From assembly GCA_030525785.1 (NCBI GenBank), contig JAUNEA010000001.1, forward strand, positions 186,001 through 250,000: 64,000 nt of DNA, written 5' to 3'. The stretch is from Cardiobacteriaceae bacterium. Lineage in GTDB: Bacteria > Pseudomonadota > Gammaproteobacteria > Cardiobacteriales > Cardiobacteriaceae. Position 1 is the stretch's first letter, and every line of letters begins with the position of its first letter. The notes beneath the pieces are model-generated. The model was not told where the DNA came from. It made no database searches and saw only the letters and a list, made by a program, of their open reading frames with translations. The position numbers and the translations under genes are program-made. Positions 4,815 to 19,143 of the stretch are shown in pieces.

Positions 4815-7363
4815 GCATTCTCCAAAGCGCTTTCAGCCGTTTTTGTAACCTTACGAGTACGCGTTTTTTTCACGCCCACATCAGTTTCTGCACTGACCTT
4901 TTGGCTTGCCCCTGTTTTCTTAGTGGCTGCTTTCTTCGTTGTGGTTTTCTTAGCAACGGCTTTCTTCGCACTTGTTTTTTTACCACTCTTAGCCTCTGCG
5001 GTAGTTTTCTTGGCAGCAGGCTTTTTCTTGGAGGATTTAGCGGTTTTTTTCGTGCTTTCCTCTTTCTTCAAAGCGCTTTCTGTTTTCTTGCTGACTTTTA
5101 AACGTTTTCTTGCACGAGCTTTTTCAAGCAACACCAATGCCTCTTGAACGCTAAGCGTTGCAGGATTAAGCGCTTTGGGGATTGAGGCGTTGATTTGCCC
5201 ATCAGTGACATAAGGTCCAAATCGTCCATTCAAAACTTGCAAGCTCTGCCCTTCATGTTCCAGCGTTTGAATAAAACGATTACGCTCCTCTTCTTTCTTC
5301 TCTTCAATCAACTGCAACGCCAATTCCAAACTCACCGTAAATGGGCTTTCCTCTTTGGGCAGAGAAACGTATTTTTTACCGTAACGAATGTAGGGGCCAA
5401 ATCGCCCATGATTGGTTGAAACCTCTTCTCCTTCATCGGTTTGCCCCAAAATGCGTGGCAATTGAAACAAGGAAAGCGCTTGCTCAAGCGTAATGGCTTC
5501 CATACGCATACCTTTAGGCAAGCTGGCAAATTGAGGCTTTTCTTCATCATCTTTGCTGCCGATTTGTGCAAAAGCTCCAAAACGACCAAACCGAACACTC
5601 ACAGGTTTTCCTGTCGCAGGGTCATGCCCAAGCTCGCGTGCCTGCATCACTTCCTCACGACTAATATCCTGCTTTTGCTCGATATTGTGAGACAAATCTT
5701 TCCAAAAATGACGCAAAACTGGCTTCCAATCTTCTTCACCACGCGAGACCTCATCAAGCGTATCTTCCAACTTAGCGGTGAAATCGTAGTTCACATAACG
5801 CTCAAAATGTGTGGTCAAGAAATCATTCACCACACGCCCTATCGTGGTAGGCATAAAGCGACGCTGCTCCAGTTCAACATATTCGCGATTTTGCAAGGTA
5901 GATAAAATGCTGGCATACGTTGATGGGCGACCAATACCATGTTCCTCAAGCGCTTTGATGAGGCTAGCTTCCGAATATCTGGGAGGCGCTTGGGTAAAAT
6001 GTTGGCTTCCTAAAATATCGTTCAGCGCCACTTTATCGCCCACCTGCAAACTGGGCAGCAAAGCGCTTTCCTCTTCTTGGGCATCATCATCTTCTTCCAG
6101 ATACAAACTCATAAAGCCTGCAAACTTGATGGTAGAGCCTGTAGCGCGGAATTGGTCTTGCTCACTTGGCGCACCCAACTCCACCGTCACCTGTTCCAAC
6201 TCCGCTGCCTCCATTTGTGAGGCAATCGCACGCTTGCGAATCAAATCATACAATTTCTGCTCATCTCCATCGAGATGACGCAGCTGCTCAACTGCCACGC
6301 TGACATCTGTTGGACGAATCGCCTCATGTGCCTCTTGGGCGTTCTTGGCTTTGGTCGTAAACACTCGCGCAACTTTAGGTAAATATACCTTTCCATACTG
6401 TTGCTCTATCAAATCGCGAATCGCCTCCACTGCCTCTTTTGCCAGATGGACGGAGTCTGTACGCATATAAGTAATATGCCCTGCTTCATACAAAGACTGA
6501 GCCACACGCATCGTTCTCTGAGCTGAAAAACGCAATTTACGCGCCGCTTCCTGTTGTAAGGTTGAGGTGATAAAAGGTGCTGCTGGCTGACGATGTTTTT
6601 TCTTCGCTTGCACTGATAACACATACAAAGCGCTTCCTGCCTGAGCTTTTAGCTGGGCAATGGCTTGTTTGACCTGTTCGCCTTCGTGAAAATCAAAAGG
6701 CTTGAGTTTTTTGCCTTGATAGACTGTTAGTTGAGCAGGGAAAAGCGCTTTGTTGACCTGAAGCTGGGCGGTAATTTTCCAATACTCTTCTGTTTTAAAT
6801 GCCTCAATTTCCCGCTCCCGCTCCACAATCATACGCAAAGCTGGTGATTGCACACGACCTGCCGACAAACCAGCCCCAACTTTTCGCCACAATAATGGCG
6901 ATAAATTGAACCCTACCAAAAAATCCAATGCTCGCCGCGCTTGCTGAGCATTCACCAAATCCATCGATAATGAGCGAGGATTTTGAATAGCCTGCACAAT
7001 AGCTGTTTTGGTAATCTCATGAAACACCACCCGATGAAGCGCTTTGCCCGCCAAAACCCCTTGCTCTTTCAACAATTCCAGCAAATGCCACGAAATAGCC
7101 TCGCCTTCGCGGTCAGGGTCAGTTGCAAGATACAGTGTTTCTGCTTTTTTGGCAGCGGAGGCAATGGCTTGAACATGTTTGGCATTGCGAGCAATGGTTT
7201 CATAATGCATGAAAAAATCATTATCCACATCAACTGAGCCATTTTTCTGCACCAAATCACGCACATGACCATACGATGCCAAAACAGTAAAATCAGCGCC
7301 CAAATATTTATGCAGCGTTTTTGCCTTCGCAGGCGATTCCACAATCAATAAATTTTTACTCAT
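4811..7363 (-). CDS. topA: DNA topoisomerase I with lysine-rich tail
   Basis: A type IA topoisomerase that relaxes negative supercoils by single-strand passage. The TOPRIM motif DPDREGE is at residues 82-88. The catalytic Tyr lies in GHITYMRTDS near residue 300, and the hinge motif GIGRPSTYASI follows. Instead of cysteine zinc ribbons, the C-terminal part has glycine-rich topo-repeats (RFGPYIRYGKKYVSLP and RFGPYVTDGQ) and a long Lys/Ala/Thr-rich basic tail of over 80 residues that probably binds DNA. I chose the ATG at 7363 (MSKNLL) because it matches the family start and follows GGGGAT. Longer in-frame starts upstream add non-conserved sequence. xthA overlaps its end. Palindrome density inside is high. 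Confidence 0.93.
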   Translation of the reverse strand: MSKNLLIVESPAKAKTLHKYLGADFTVLASYGHVRDLVQKNGSVDVDNDFFMHYETIARNAKHVQAIASAAKKAETLYLATDPDREGEAISWHLLELLKEQGVLAGKALHRVVFHEITKTAIVQAIQNPRSLSMDLVNAQQARRALDFLVGFNLSPLLWRKVGAGLSAGRVQSPALRMIVEREREIEAFKTEEYWKITAQLQVNKALFPAQLTVYQGKKLKPFDFHEGEQVKQAIAQLKAQAGSALYVLSVQAKKKHRQPAAPFITSTLQQEAARKLRFSAQRTMRVAQSLYEAGHITYMRTDSVHLAKEAVEAIRDLIEQQYGKVYLPKVARVFTTKAKNAQEAHEAIRPTDVSVAVEQLRHLDGDEQKLYDLIRKRAIASQMEAAELEQVTVELGAPSEQDQFRATGSTIKFAGFMSLYLEEDDDAQEEESALLPSLQVGDKVALNDILGSQHFTQAPPRYSEASLIKALEEHGIGRPSTYASILSTLQNREYVELEQRRFMPTTIGRVVNDFLTTHFERYVNYDFTAKLEDTLDEVSRGEEDWKPVLRHFWKDLSHNIEQKQDISREEVMQARELGHDPATGKPVSVRFGRFGAFAQIGSKDDEEKPQFASLPKGMRMEAITLEQALSLFQLPRILGQTDEGEEVSTNHGRFGPYIRYGKKYVSLPKEESPFTVSLELALQLIEEKKEEERNRFIQTLEHEGQSLQVLNGRFGPYVTDGQINASIPKALNPATLSVQEALVLLEKARARKRLKVSKKTESALKKEESTKKTAKSSKKKPAAKKTTAEAKSGKKTSAKKAVAKKTTTKKAATKKTGASQKVSAETDVGVKKTRTRKVTKTAESALENA

Positions 7364-7521: not shown

Positions 7522-8697
7522 TTATGCACCATATCGTTGAAACCGACCACCTGCTACACTCATCACTCTCCCATCAAGCTCCAACATCAAAAGCTGTGAT
7601 GCCACTTGCTCTGCCTTCTGTCCTGTGCGCTCCACTAAATCATCAATGGTGCAAATTTCAAAGCCCATAGCCTCCAAAATGATACGCTCTTCTTCACTCA
7701 AAGCGCTTTGGGCTTTAACACTTGGCGCAAATTGTGGAGAAGCCATAGGCGTGGCGGAACTGGCAGGTTCAGCTTTAGCCAAAGTCTCTTTCATTTGCGC
7801 ACGAATAGGATATTGATGATTCACCACACCACGCAATTCCTCCACAATATCTTGCGCACTTTCAACCAATTTCGCCCCCTGCTTAATCAAATGATGGCAA
7901 CCTTTCGCCAGAGGATTATGAATGGAACCTGGTATAGCAAAAACCTCTCGACCCTGCTCGCTCGCCAATCGTGCTGTAATCAAAGAACCACTTTGCAATG
8001 AAGCCTCTACCACCAAAACCCCTGCCGCCAAGCCACTGATAATACGGTTACGGCGTGGAAAATGTTCGCTGCGCACCCCAACGCCAATCGGAAATTCCGA
8101 CACCATCGCGCCTTGTTTCACAATCTGATGCGCGAGTGCATGATGTTTTGCAGGGTAGACGCGATCCAATCCTGTACCCACGACAGCAATAGTCAAACCA
8201 CCTGCTGCCAAAGCGCTTTCATGTGCCGCCCCATCAACGCCTAATGCCAAGCCACTCGTAATCACCAACCCACAACTACTCAAAATACGTGCAAAATCAT
8301 AAGTATTTTGCAATGCTCCACTGCTTGCCTGCCGACTGCCAACAATTGCTACCTGTGGCAACCAAAGCGCTTTGACATTGCCCTGCACAAATAGCACAGG
8401 TGGCGGATCATCAATAGCTTTTAAAAGAGGAGGATAATCAGGGTCATCAAAGGTCAAAATGTAACGTTCTTCGCCAGCCAGCAACCAATCCACATCTTGC
8501 TTTCCTTCATCGCAACACGCACGCCAACTCTGCCAAAGTGTTTCCTTCACTTGTGGCAAAGTTGCGCGAACATCAGCATCTGAAGCATCAAAAAATGCCT
8601 TTGGCGAACCAAAGGCATTAACAATCTGAAAGAAGGTTTTGCTACCGACTTTAGGCGCTCGCCAAAGCGAACACCAAGCCGCTATTGCTTCATTCAT
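7522..8697 (-). CDS. dprA: DNA processing protein DprA (Smf)
   Basis: DprA binds incoming single-stranded DNA and loads RecA during natural transformation. The Rossmann-like core is clear: GSRQAS at about residues 118-123, SGLALGVDGAAHE, AVVGTGLDRVYP, PRRNRIISGLA, and SGSLITA..A.EQGREVFAIPG. An N-terminal helix-hairpin-helix-like region and a C-terminal winged-helix (from EERIILEAMG, about residue 325) flank it, as in many Gram-negative homologues. At 391 residues it has normal length. It lies 6 bases downstream of the LysM lipoprotein gene, a common pairing in Proteobacteria. Its presence suggests that the organism could be competent, but other com genes are not in this window. Confidence 0.93.
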   Translation of the reverse strand: MNEAIAAWCSLWRAPKVGSKTFFQIVNAFGSPKAFFDASDADVRATLPQVKETLWQSWRACCDEGKQDVDWLLAGEERYILTFDDPDYPPLLKAIDDPPPVLFVQGNVKALWLPQVAIVGSRQASSGALQNTYDFARILSSCGLVITSGLALGVDGAAHESALAAGGLTIAVVGTGLDRVYPAKHHALAHQIVKQGAMVSEFPIGVGVRSEHFPRRNRIISGLAAGVLVVEASLQSGSLITARLASEQGREVFAIPGSIHNPLAKGCHHLIKQGAKLVESAQDIVEELRGVVNHQYPIRAQMKETLAKAEPASSATPMASPQFAPSVKAQSALSEEERIILEAMGFEICTIDDLVERTGQKAEQVASQLLMLELDGRVMSVAGGRFQRYGA

Positions 8698-15564: not shown

Positions 15565-16941
15565 ATGAACCCAACCGAAATTCTCATTATTGATGACGAA
15601 GTGCAGATTGTTGAAAGTCTGCGTGATATTCTGGAAGACGAAGGCTATGTCGTCCACAGCGCCCACAACGGCTCCAGCGCAAATGAACAACTCAAAAGCC
15701 TAAACCCTGATTTGATTTTACTGGATATTTGGATGCCTGACATCGATGGCATCAGCTTATTGCGCCTGTGGCAAGAAAACGATTGGCTGCGTTCTCCCGT
15801 GATTGTGATGAGTGGGCATGGCACAATTGAAACAGCAGTAGAAGCGACCAAACTAGGAGCTTACGATTACCTCGAAAAGCCTCTCTCCAGCGCAAAATTA
15901 TTACTCACCCTTGATCGTGCCCGTCAAGCCCATCAGCTCCAGTTACAAAATGCAGCTTTGAAAGCGAAAATCAGCCCACCACGCGAGCTTATCGGCAAAA
16001 GCGCTTATATGCAGCAGCTTAAAAAGCATGGTTTACAATGGGTTAGCAATACCTCTCTGCGCCACGTGCCATTGTTACTGACGGGCGCAACAGGCACTGG
16101 TAAGCAACATCTCGCCCATTATCTTCATCAAAATAGCCCAGAACATGATAATCCCTTTGTTTTCGCGCCACTCTCTGCGATGGATTCCAGCGAACACCAA
16201 AGCGCTTTGCTAGGTAATAGCAAACGTCTTGGCTTTATCGCCCAAGCTCAACACGGCACACTCTATCTCGATGAAATTGCCGAACTCTCTCACGAAGCCC
16301 AACAAACTCTCCTCCATCTTGCTCAACATCAAACCTATTTCGCTCAAGACCAAAGTAAACAACTCAAAGATAGCCAGCTACGTTTGATTATGGCAACACG
16401 TTTGCCTCTAACCCTTTTAAAAGAACAACTTATCCCTGAGCTTTACGACATCTTAACCATCATGCATCTGCATTTATTACCTCTTGCAGAGCATCGTGAT
16501 GATATTCCCGAATTGTTGGAATACTTCAGTCAACAACTTGCTGATTACGAACAACTCAGTTACCGCCATTTCAGCATCAACGCGCAAAATGTGTTACGAC
16601 AACAAACATGGCATGGCAATATCCGCGAATTACGCCATTTGGTACAACGCCTCCTCATTCAGCACGATGACCCCGAAATCAGCGCCGAAGAAGCTACCCA
16701 AGCCCTTTCCAGCCACGACGAGCAAACAAAAGACGAACTCTGGGCTCAAATTATCCCCAAAGATTTAAGCTTCCGTGATGCTCGAGAAAAATTCGAACGG
16801 CAATATCTCATGGAACAATTTCGCCGTTGTGACGGTAACATTGCACGGTTGAGTTCGCTTGTGGGTATGGATCGCACCAATTTGTATCGTAAATTGCGTA
16901 GCGTTAATATTGACCCCACCGTGAAACCAAAACAATCCTAA
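15565..16941 (+). CDS. ntrX: Response regulator NtrX with degenerate AAA+ domain
   Basis: A 458-residue regulator in three parts. The receiver domain has acidic residues Asp10 and Asp11 and phosphoacceptor Asp54 in LILLDIWMPD. The central AAA+ domain has Walker A (LTGATGTGK) and Walker B (GTLYLDEI). The C-terminal Fis-type helix-turn-helix is GNIARLSSLVGMDRTNLYRKL. The GAFTGA loop that contacts sigma-54 is missing: the segment before Walker B reads LLGNSKRLGFIAQAQHGTLYLDEI. The usual arginine-finger segment (LYYRL) is replaced by LYDIL. It therefore probably does not activate sigma-54 promoters, as known for some alphaproteobacterial NtrX/NtrC proteins. CAGGAGC precedes the ATG. Confidence 0.9.
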   Translation: MNPTEILIIDDEVQIVESLRDILEDEGYVVHSAHNGSSANEQLKSLNPDLILLDIWMPDIDGISLLRLWQENDWLRSPVIVMSGHGTIETAVEATKLGAYDYLEKPLSSAKLLLTLDRARQAHQLQLQNAALKAKISPPRELIGKSAYMQQLKKHGLQWVSNTSLRHVPLLLTGATGTGKQHLAHYLHQNSPEHDNPFVFAPLSAMDSSEHQSALLGNSKRLGFIAQAQHGTLYLDEIAELSHEAQQTLLHLAQHQTYFAQDQSKQLKDSQLRLIMATRLPLTLLKEQLIPELYDILTIMHLHLLPLAEHRDDIPELLEYFSQQLADYEQLSYRHFSINAQNVLRQQTWHGNIRELRHLVQRLLIQHDDPEISAEEATQALSSHDEQTKDELWAQIIPKDLSFRDAREKFERQYLMEQFRRCDGNIARLSSLVGMDRTNLYRKLRSVNIDPTVKPKQS

Positions 16942-16971
16942 AATCTTCTCTCAAAGCGCTTTGGAACATCG

Positions 16972-18483
16972 ATGAAACACAAATCCAACCCACATCAGCT
17001 TTTCATGCTTCTGCGTGGACATCAAGGCTCAGGAAAAACAACGTTCGCTGAACAACAAATCGCGGCATTTCAACACCAATATCCACAGGCAAAGATTGTG
17101 TGGCTGGAGAATGATCGTTTGATGATGGATAAAAATGGTATTTACCGCTTTTCTCCAGAAGCCATTGAACGCGCTATAAAAACCAATGAGCAAACCTTCC
17201 AAAGCGCTTTGAAACAAGCCAAAGATAATCGCCATCAACCTATCCTCATCATCAACTCCAACACCAACCAAAAAGCCAGTCATGTACAAAGCGCTTTGGC
17301 GCAAGCGAAAAAAGCAGGATTGGCAACAGAAGTGTATCGTTTGCATAATTTTTACCCCAATCAGCATCATGTGCCTGAGGAAGAAGTTTTAGCGGCTTAT
17401 CTTCGCTTGAATGAGCAAAAAGTGGCTGGCGAGATTCATGTAGAAGCCCATCAACCTATCTCTGCCAAACAAAGCGCTTTGTTAGCTCAAATGGAGGCGT
17501 TTCATCTCAATCCCCTACCCTTTGATGCATCGCAACAAACTTATGTCACCGCCGATTATCTACGCTTTGGCTATCAGCGTTTTACTCGAAAACGCTCCAA
17601 ACATTTTGAAAATCTTTCGGTGTTGAAATATAAACGGGAAGTGTTTTACCGCAATCTGTTTGACGAGGCTTTGCTGGAGATGCGAGGCATGGTGATTGAT
17701 AATTTTGGGCGTATCATCGTGCGGCCGTTTAAAAAAGTGTTCAATTACAGTGAACGAATTGCGCCAAACAGCCCTTATCCTTTACAGCTCGATGATGAGG
17801 CGCTGGTTGATGCAGTGGTAAAGGTGAATGGCTTTTTGGGGGTGTGTACTTATGTGGATTTACCCCCTGAACACCCCAGCCATCATGCCCATTTTAATCG
17901 CCAAATCCTCTACTCCACGACAGGCTCTCTCGATAGTGATTTTGCCCACATGACCAAAGCGCATTGCGCACGTTACAGCGCTCTGTTTGAAGCCTATCCT
18001 AATCATACTTTCCTTTTTGAAATCAATGATGAAAAAGATGTCCACATTATCCACGAGCTTCTTGGAGAAACTTTAATCGGCGTGGTGGAAGTGGCAACAG
18101 GGAGAATGTGGCGCGAAGATGAGCTGGATAATCTGGCAAAGCGCTTTCAAGATTTGGGCGTAAGAAGACCTGAAGTATTGCGTGGTATCACTTTTGGCGC
18201 ACTCAAAACGCTTTTGAAAACAGTGGAACATGAAGGGTTTATGGTTTTTGACCACCATAGCCAAGCTTTGCTGTTTAAGCTGAAATCGCCATTTTATTTA
18301 ATCTCCAAACTTCTGGGGCGTAGCAATGAGAAAAGTTTGTTGAAAAAGCTGGATAAACGCTATGTCGATGAAGAATTTTATCCGCTCATTGATTATCTCA
18401 AAGTGCATCAAAACACTTTTAACACTTTGGCAGAACAAGAAAAAATAAAATTCATTCAAGATTTTTTACGAAATCATCTGTGA
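16972..18483 (+). CDS. Polynucleotide kinase-RNA ligase fusion (Rnl1-like)
   Basis: A 503-residue two-domain protein. The N-terminal P-loop kinase has Walker A GHQGSGKTT (residues 16-24) and a likely general-base Asp48 in WLEND, followed by NGIYRFSPE, as in AAA_33/polynucleotide-kinase-type domains. The C-terminal part looks like an ATP-dependent RNA ligase of the T4 Rnl1 type. It has a conserved RGMVID strand, the RPFKKVFNYSE motif (251-261), the nucleotidyl-Lys motif KVNG (Lys284), motif III FLFEIND (347-353), motif IV EGFMVFD (421-427) and motif V FKLKSPFY (435-442). The kinase would phosphorylate 5'-OH RNA ends and the ligase would seal them. A metallophosphoesterase gene follows after 9 bases. 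Substrate is unknown. Assignment rests on motif reading, not on a search. Confidence 0.78.
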   Translation: MKHKSNPHQLFMLLRGHQGSGKTTFAEQQIAAFQHQYPQAKIVWLENDRLMMDKNGIYRFSPEAIERAIKTNEQTFQSALKQAKDNRHQPILIINSNTNQKASHVQSALAQAKKAGLATEVYRLHNFYPNQHHVPEEEVLAAYLRLNEQKVAGEIHVEAHQPISAKQSALLAQMEAFHLNPLPFDASQQTYVTADYLRFGYQRFTRKRSKHFENLSVLKYKREVFYRNLFDEALLEMRGMVIDNFGRIIVRPFKKVFNYSERIAPNSPYPLQLDDEALVDAVVKVNGFLGVCTYVDLPPEHPSHHAHFNRQILYSTTGSLDSDFAHMTKAHCARYSALFEAYPNHTFLFEINDEKDVHIIHELLGETLIGVVEVATGRMWREDELDNLAKRFQDLGVRRPEVLRGITFGALKTLLKTVEHEGFMVFDHHSQALLFKLKSPFYLISKLLGRSNEKSLLKKLDKRYVDEEFYPLIDYLKVHQNTFNTLAEQEKIKFIQDFLRNHL

Positions 18484-18492
18484 GCTAATACC

Positions 18493-19143
18493 ATGAGTCG
18501 CCTTTTTTTCACCGCTGATTTGCATTTTCATCACGCCAATATTTTAAAGCTCGCCCCTCAGTTTCGCCCTTTTGCTGACCTTCAGGAAATGGAAAGCGCT
18601 TTGGTGGAAGCATGGAATCAAACCGTTAGCCCTGATGATATTGTCTACAATCTTGGCGATTTTTCTTTGTCTCGCTCGCCTGAACAAGTGGTTTCTGTGT
18701 TACAAAAATTGCATGGGCAACACCATCTTATCCTCGGCAATCATGACCATCTCCTACTCAAGCACCAAACCCTTTTCTTAAATACTCCAAAGCATGATGG
18801 TCACCCACTCCTATCCAGCATTCAACACTATCTCTATTTGCCTTTGCCTGAAAAACCAAAGCGCTTTGCTGTGTTGCATCATTACCCTATTCAAGAGTGG
18901 GACGGCTGCTTTCAAGGCTCCTATCATCTTCACGGACATATCCACAATCGCATCGCCCCCATCAAAGGTCGCCTTTTGAATGTGGGTTGGGATTTGCATG
19001 GTAGATTGCTAAGCCTTGAGGATATTCGCCAGTTCCTCGAACCTCTCCCTGTTTTTCCCTATCCCAACACACCAACCCTCACTCATTCCGCCACCGAACA
19101 AATCGCCTACCTCCAAAGCGCTTTGCAAACATTGAATACCTAA
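18493..19143 (+). CDS. Calcineurin-like metallophosphoesterase
   Basis: A 216-residue enzyme with the complete binuclear metallophosphoesterase set: DLHFHH (residues 9-14), LGDFSL, GNHD, the His in LHHYP and GHIHN. It has no signal peptide. It lies 9 bases after the kinase-ligase gene and is almost certainly co-transcribed with it. In bacterial Pnkp a metallophosphoesterase domain heals 3' ends (2',3'-cyclic or 3'-phosphate) for a kinase and ligase in one polypeptide. Here the same three activities seem split over two genes. That function is inference from context; it could also hydrolyse nucleotides or other phosphodiesters. No strong ribosome site precedes the ATG, consistent with coupling. 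Confidence 0.8.
   Translation: MSRLFFTADLHFHHANILKLAPQFRPFADLQEMESALVEAWNQTVSPDDIVYNLGDFSLSRSPEQVVSVLQKLHGQHHLILGNHDHLLLKHQTLFLNTPKHDGHPLLSSIQHYLYLPLPEKPKRFAVLHHYPIQEWDGCFQGSYHLHGHIHNRIAPIKGRLLNVGWDLHGRLLSLEDIRQFLEPLPVFPYPNTPTLTHSATEQIAYLQSALQTLNT

Follow-up and report, generated by a model that had tools for sequence, protein, structure and literature searches.

A kinase-ligase gene and a phosphoesterase gene lie downstream of ntrX

The window is a stretch of 64,000 nucleotides from a Cardiobacteriaceae genome. Within it, KL (positions 16972 to 18483, stop included) encodes a kinase-ligase fusion of 503 amino acids. The adjacent gene, MPE (18493 to 19143, stop included), encodes a metallophosphoesterase of 216 amino acids and follows after 9 bases. 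Both are on the forward strand, as is the upstream gene for an NtrX-like sigma54 response regulator (15565 to 16941). Named by reading the sequence, the neighbourhood comprises ntrX, ntrY and rsmB-like, bile-acid-symporter-like, cation-efflux-like and NAD-glutamate-dehydrogenase-like genes. KL starts 30 bases past the end of ntrX. Hence, KL and MPE may share the ntrYX transcript; judged by this spacing, co-transcription is probable. A sigma54-like match at 16391 (scoring 13 of 14.7) was discarded. This falls inside the ntrX coding sequence, approximately 570 bp from KL, and was unmatched by a second pattern. Assignment of KL and MPE to a known defence system was also rejected, PADLOC matches being at chance level only.

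The N-terminal part of KL (approximately residues 1–200; 16972 to 17571, with an approximate boundary) is a predicted 5'-OH polynucleotide kinase domain. The P-loop, GHQGSGKT, occupies residues 16–23 (17017 to 17040) and is invariant in 16 homologues save for S or T at residue 23. The Pfam model AAA_33 scored 26.7, just under its cut-off of 27 (E = 7.8e-6), and the kinase part matched phrog_2071 (3.1e-11) and phrog_505 (1.2e-5). Foldseek matched the domain to T4 PNK (2ia5; 2.4e-4, rmsd 3.7). By analogy, D48 is the predicted catalytic Asp and R123 the predicted lid Arg.

The remainder of KL (approximately residues 204–503; 17581 to 18480) is a predicted Rnl1-type RNA ligase domain. The predicted adenylylation site, Lys284 of KVNG, is encoded by AAG at 17821 to 17823. 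Nucleotidyltransferase motifs I (KxNG), IIIa, IV and V are all present, with EGFMVFD at residues 421–427 and KLKSPFY at 436–442. Across both domains, K22, D48, R123, K284, N286, G287, E350, E421, K436 and K438 are invariant in the alignment of 16 homologues, as are the rest of FLFE347-350 and G422. The ligase part matched the RNA ligase family phrog_562 at 1.1e-37. Against RNA_lig_T4_1 (PF09511) KL scored 24.4, with a cut-off of 28.3 (E = 3e-5); three sister KL proteins exceeded that cut-off (40.3, 46.9 and 38.5). The AlphaFold model of KL has a pLDDT of 90.3. Its top Foldseek match is a fungal tRNA ligase adenylyltransferase (9qw7, 1e-8). Matches in the PDB also include archaeal and Naegleria RNA ligases; E values for 8ucg and 5cou were 1.6e-7 and 1.9e-6, respectively. 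These data confirm KL as a T4-PNK-like kinase joined to a T4-Rnl1-type RNA ligase. The initial annotation had placed the gene, P-loop, Lys284 in KVNG, EGFMVFD and KLKSPFY correctly, and the structure prediction that it proposed as a check recovered the ligase fold.

MPE matched the phosphoesterase family phrog_547 (4.6e-46) and, by sequence, PDB entry 1xm7 (7.6e-8). No Pfam family was matched at E values up to 1. The metal motifs DxH, GD, GNHD, HYP and GHxH are present; in an alignment of 16 sequences DxH, GD, GNHD, the H and GHxH are invariant. The model has the metallophosphoesterase fold with moderate confidence (pLDDT 79.8); the best Foldseek match is again 1xm7 (2.4e-8), a protein of unknown function. 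MPE is thus confirmed as a calcineurin-type metallophosphoesterase, and the earlier claim of a complete gene 9 bases past KL holds. We predict that it is a 2',3'-cyclic phosphodiesterase/3'-phosphatase. Of the columns otherwise invariant among relatives, 171 in KL and 74 in MPE, the window proteins keep 164 and 67. No predicted catalytic residue or metal ligand is altered. Both proteins appear free of decay.

KL and MPE are predicted to heal and seal RNA

Metal-independent RNases leave 5'-OH and 2',3'-cyclic phosphate ends. Rnl1 ligases require a 5'-phosphate and a 3'-OH. Hence, the kinase and MPE would supply the missing conversions. In the proposed order, MPE would open 2',3'-cyclic phosphate ends and strip the phosphate to yield a 3'-OH. 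The kinase domain of KL would phosphorylate the 5'-OH end, and the ligase domain would then join the ends via Lys284-AMP.

In relatives, the two genes are paired. A scan of 84,980 species genomes located KL in Cardiobacterium, Neisseria, Alysiella, Conchiformibius, Moraxella and Campylobacter concisus. In an even, class-wide sample of 369 genomes, only the window genome was positive. We therefore consider the pair rare and patchy, and found in bacteria of the mouth and mucosa. Among Neisseriaceae, 18 of the 83 genomes searched had KL matches, some of them fragments. MPE adjoins KL in 15/15 loci with intact KL in the scan of genome contigs, and in all 10 Moraxellaceae with KL. The pair is therefore retained in every intact homologue with enough flanking sequence. 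Two Neisseria loci have KL broken by a stop or frameshift (L026, 10345–10362, and L092). In two others (L016 and L031), a protein of approximately 190–210 amino acids, with a signal-peptide-like start, is encoded between KL and MPE.

Fused versions also exist. A Variovorax megaplasmid encodes a kinase-MPE-Rnl1 ligase protein matching AAA_33 (5.8e-19), Metallophos (1.4e-11) and RNA_lig_T4_1 (4.6e-11). In a Moraxellaceae genome, the same kinase-MPE-ligase fusion was identified by reading motifs. The genes map to L056:2567-4858 (Variovorax, adjoining recA) and L070:1440-3785. Each is apparently an uncharacterised, putatively trifunctional repair protein. Since all three parts can occur in one chain, kinase, MPE and ligase are likely to act in one pathway. 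The initial annotation had treated them as one unit, and both the pairing and the fusions bear this out.

The metallophosphoesterase superfamily acts on many substrates, which counts against a specific 3'-healing assignment. In another reading, KL would seal RNA but the target of MPE would be a signal of RNA damage, either small 2',3'-cyclic nucleotides or dinucleotides, and another enzyme would heal the 3' end. The second Foldseek match of MPE, a weak one, is the cyclic-nucleotide phosphodiesterase Rv0805 (0.012), and a weak NCBIfam match is to bis(5'-nucleosyl)-tetraphosphatase (0.031). However, KL and MPE are paired across four groups, the triple fusions place MPE between kinase and ligase, and an Rnl1 ligase needs a 3'-OH. 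We consider a signalling role quite unlikely, and favour 3' healing by MPE.

In relatives, the pair lies beside RtcR, Ro60 and Y RNA genes

RtcR is encoded divergently, next to KL, in 7 of 10 Moraxellaceae (PF06956, for example 1.6e-61). It also occurs at the KL loci of Alysiella, Cardiobacterium and N. elongata. A Ro60/Rsr homologue (vWA_Ro60, 7.8e-19; PDB 2nvo Rsr, 1.5e-19) is encoded 5' of KL, in the same orientation, in 3/3 genomes of the genus Cardiobacterium, three Neisseria loci and Alysiella. Upstream of Ro60, YrlA Y RNAs exceeded the Rfam cut-off in five of six loci searched; YrlA in Alysiella scored just under it. Tandem YrlA copies precede Ro60 at L015 (C. hominis, 7829–8089), L025 (5130–5416) and L029. 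At a further locus in C. hominis, Ro60 and YrlA copies accompany a KL reduced to a truncated kinase part.

A full-consensus sigma54 site occurs in the interval from rtcR to the first YrlA, at 6875 in Alysiella (YrlA from 6909) and at 6717 in N. elongata (YrlA from 7003); 200 shuffles gave no match. Six Moraxella loci have TGGCAYN5TTG sites 5' of KL; these sigma54-like sites need a looser -12 box, and are missed when GC at -12 is required. G009, which belongs to the same family as the window genome, has rtcB as the divergent neighbour of rtcR, in place of KL and MPE. Moraxella has KL and MPE plus an RtcB encoded elsewhere in the genome. Hence, replacement of RtcB by the pair is not universal. 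By gene content and order, the locus of the relatives is an RtcR RNA-repair operon, in which KL and MPE take the usual place of RtcB and RtcA.

The published ligands and activators of RtcR are tRNA 5' halves with a 2',3'-cyclic phosphate terminus (PMC7790460). Since this is the signal, and since the pair fills the RtcB slot in an RtcR/Ro60/Y-RNA operon, tRNAs cut in the anticodon loop would be the likeliest substrates, presumably under stress. A role in tRNA repair had been suggested by the initial annotation, and the linkage in relatives lends it indirect support. The real substrate might instead be rRNA, mRNA or broken DNA ends, with the Ro60/RtcR link reflecting general nucleic-acid damage. 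In its favour, the RNA-repair operon of Salmonella is DNA damage-induced, and a part in DNA repair has been suggested for RtcB and Rsr (PMC7790460). We think this unlikely. The ligands of RtcR are tRNA halves, the top fold match of KL is a tRNA ligase, and both YrlA and an RNA of approximately 235 nt upstream of some KL genes are tRNA-like. We favour tRNA as the substrate.

In the literature searched, we did not find a kinase-ligase with MPE in an RtcR/Ro60/YrlA operon; Burroughs & Aravind 2016 was outside that search, and prior description is possible. The domains and their chemistry are already known. It is their occurrence together within such an operon that is apparently new, subject to that proviso. 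Absent from the initial annotation were the link to RtcR/Ro60 operons, the replacement of RtcB and the phage proteins nearest to the ligase and MPE.

A candidate tRNA-like RNA precedes some KL genes

Three Moraxella loci and one Conchiformibius genome have a putative tRNA-like RNA of 230–242 nt upstream of KL (L017:9750-9979, L022:9756-9989, L028:9743-9976 and L021:3121-3362). The predicted structure includes D-arm-like and T-arm hairpins and finishes in ACCA; its acceptor stem, of 7 bp, shows compensatory changes. Double compensatory changes occur in 20 of 65 pairs. Overall, 98.8% of cells pair, compared with less than 56% in slid controls, a contrast inflated because the structure was derived from the same four sequences. 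The RNA was reported neither by Rfam at gathering score nor by ARAGORN. On these four sequences, its existence is well supported, not proven. Queried with the Ro60 protein, the Moraxella/Conchiformibius genomes tested (G399, G404 and G401) had no Ro60.

We tentatively suggest, at slightly less than even confidence, that RtcR/Ro60 operons swapped their enzymes, a phage-type KL plus MPE taking over from RtcB/RtcA. In some Moraxella and Conchiformibius, Ro60 and YrlA would in turn have given way to the tRNA-like RNA, which would be a decoy or scaffold for the repair enzymes, or their ligand. The window would represent the minimal, enzymes-only form.

The window genome has the enzymes and none of the operon partners

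The window genome (G000; 1.617 Mb, 93.7% complete) is of the same family as Cardiobacterium. No RtcR was found in it. No Ro60 was detected with the TROVE Pfam model, which is too weak for these divergent proteins, nor with the Ro60 protein itself, which we used as query instead. RtcB had no match in the window genome, C. hominis or G011. Hen1, noted as missing by the initial annotation, is absent well beyond the window: 0/11 genomes, that of the window and its relatives, had a match, with a control genome positive. Since the assembly is 93.7% complete, the absence of RtcR, Ro60, RtcB and Hen1 is provisional. Two YrlA candidates, at 39 and 29 bits, were rejected against a cut-off of 69; unrelated control genomes gave similar sub-cut-off hits, and these are probably tRNA-like sequence. 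Hence, the window carries an orphan copy of KL and MPE. RtcR, Ro60 and YrlA were either lost or never acquired, and the operon argument reaches the window only through homology.

An orphan copy could be a passenger, that is, a captured phage-type repair cassette with no regulated function in its host. The closest relatives of the KL ligase and MPE are phage protein families (phrog_562 and phrog_547), and Vibrio phage Thalassa encodes a ligase and an MPE approximately 0.7 kb apart. The missing RtcR, Ro60 and YrlA fit this reading. So does the tree, where window KL has a long branch; its position, next to Alysiella and outside Cardiobacterium, has weak support, and separate acquisition is thus possible. 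A search of viral contigs gave one distant kinase match only. However, both reading frames are intact, catalytic residues are kept, and no phage genes are among the immediate neighbours in the window. The GC content of the pair (43–46%) is similar to that of the window (44%). Furthermore, KL and MPE contain seven copies of the host palindrome AAAGCGCTTT. We consider a passenger very unlikely.

The palindrome deserves caution. There are four copies in KL (17201, 17288, 17471 and 18138), not three as claimed in the initial annotation, and three in MPE. Another lies outside the two genes, between ntrX and KL (16953 to 16962). The window contains 113 copies, compared with 0.39 expected, and the genome 3149 in 1.617 Mb, or approximately one per 514 bp; a reversed control occurs three times. 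Hence, AAAGCGCTTT is not specific to this locus. Since it is everywhere in the genome, its presence is weak evidence for the long residence that had been claimed; the palindrome may spread by drift, uptake bias or recombination. Small loci from other Cardiobacteriaceae genera have no copy or one. The sequence resembles HIP1 or a DNA-uptake signal, and a description of it as either was not found in the literature searched.

Taken together, it is likely that KL and MPE are a complete, classical healing-and-sealing RNA-repair kit, with tRNA the likeliest substrate, and that the window copy is an enzymes-only version.

Comparison with known repair systems

In relatives, the operon resembles Salmonella rsr-yrlBA-rtcBA, which is RtcR-regulated (PMC7790460). 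Both have divergent RtcR, a sigma54-type site, YrlA RNAs and Ro60/Rsr, then repair enzymes. The relatives differ in carrying a kinase-ligase and MPE, not RtcB/RtcA, and the window copy differs further in having no regulatory or Ro60 parts. That RtcB and a kinase with Rnl1 can sit behind the same switch, with the same Ro60/Y-RNA partners, suggests that RtcR is a damage sensor independent of the repair chemistry. The role of Ro60 and Y RNA in RNA repair thus becomes testable by swapping enzyme modules. The tRNA-like RNA, if true, would be a new RNA family in RtcR-type operons.

The closest sequence families are phrog_562 and phrog_547, with the triple fusions, and Thalassa links ligase and MPE. 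These phage genes and fusions differ in being separate genes or a single protein, with no tie to RtcR or Ro60 where examined. Phage T4 Pnkp and Rnl1 likewise combine a PNK-type kinase with an Rnl1-type ligase, and heal before sealing. In KL, however, the kinase is fused to the ligase and the gene is on a bacterial chromosome. For 3' healing, T4 has a DxDxT phosphatase fused to the kinase, whereas a separate calcineurin-type MPE is predicted to do this here.

Bacterial Pnkp also uses a phosphatase of the MPE type. As in bacterial Pnkp-Hen1 and Pnkp1-Rnl-Hen1 (PMC4411300), kinase, phosphatase and ligase activities come together, as predictions in our case. The differences from Pnkp-Hen1 are the lack of Hen1, an MPE on its own polypeptide and an Rnl1-type ligase, with no Pnkp-ligase family among the Pfam hits of KL.

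Fungal Trl1 also has kinase and ligase on one chain, and provides the best Foldseek match of the KL ligase domain. The domain order of KL is reversed, and Trl1 relies on a 2H phosphodiesterase for 3' healing (PMC3400036), unlike the MPE here. KL and MPE would give tRNA ligation of the fungal type a natural counterpart in bacteria.
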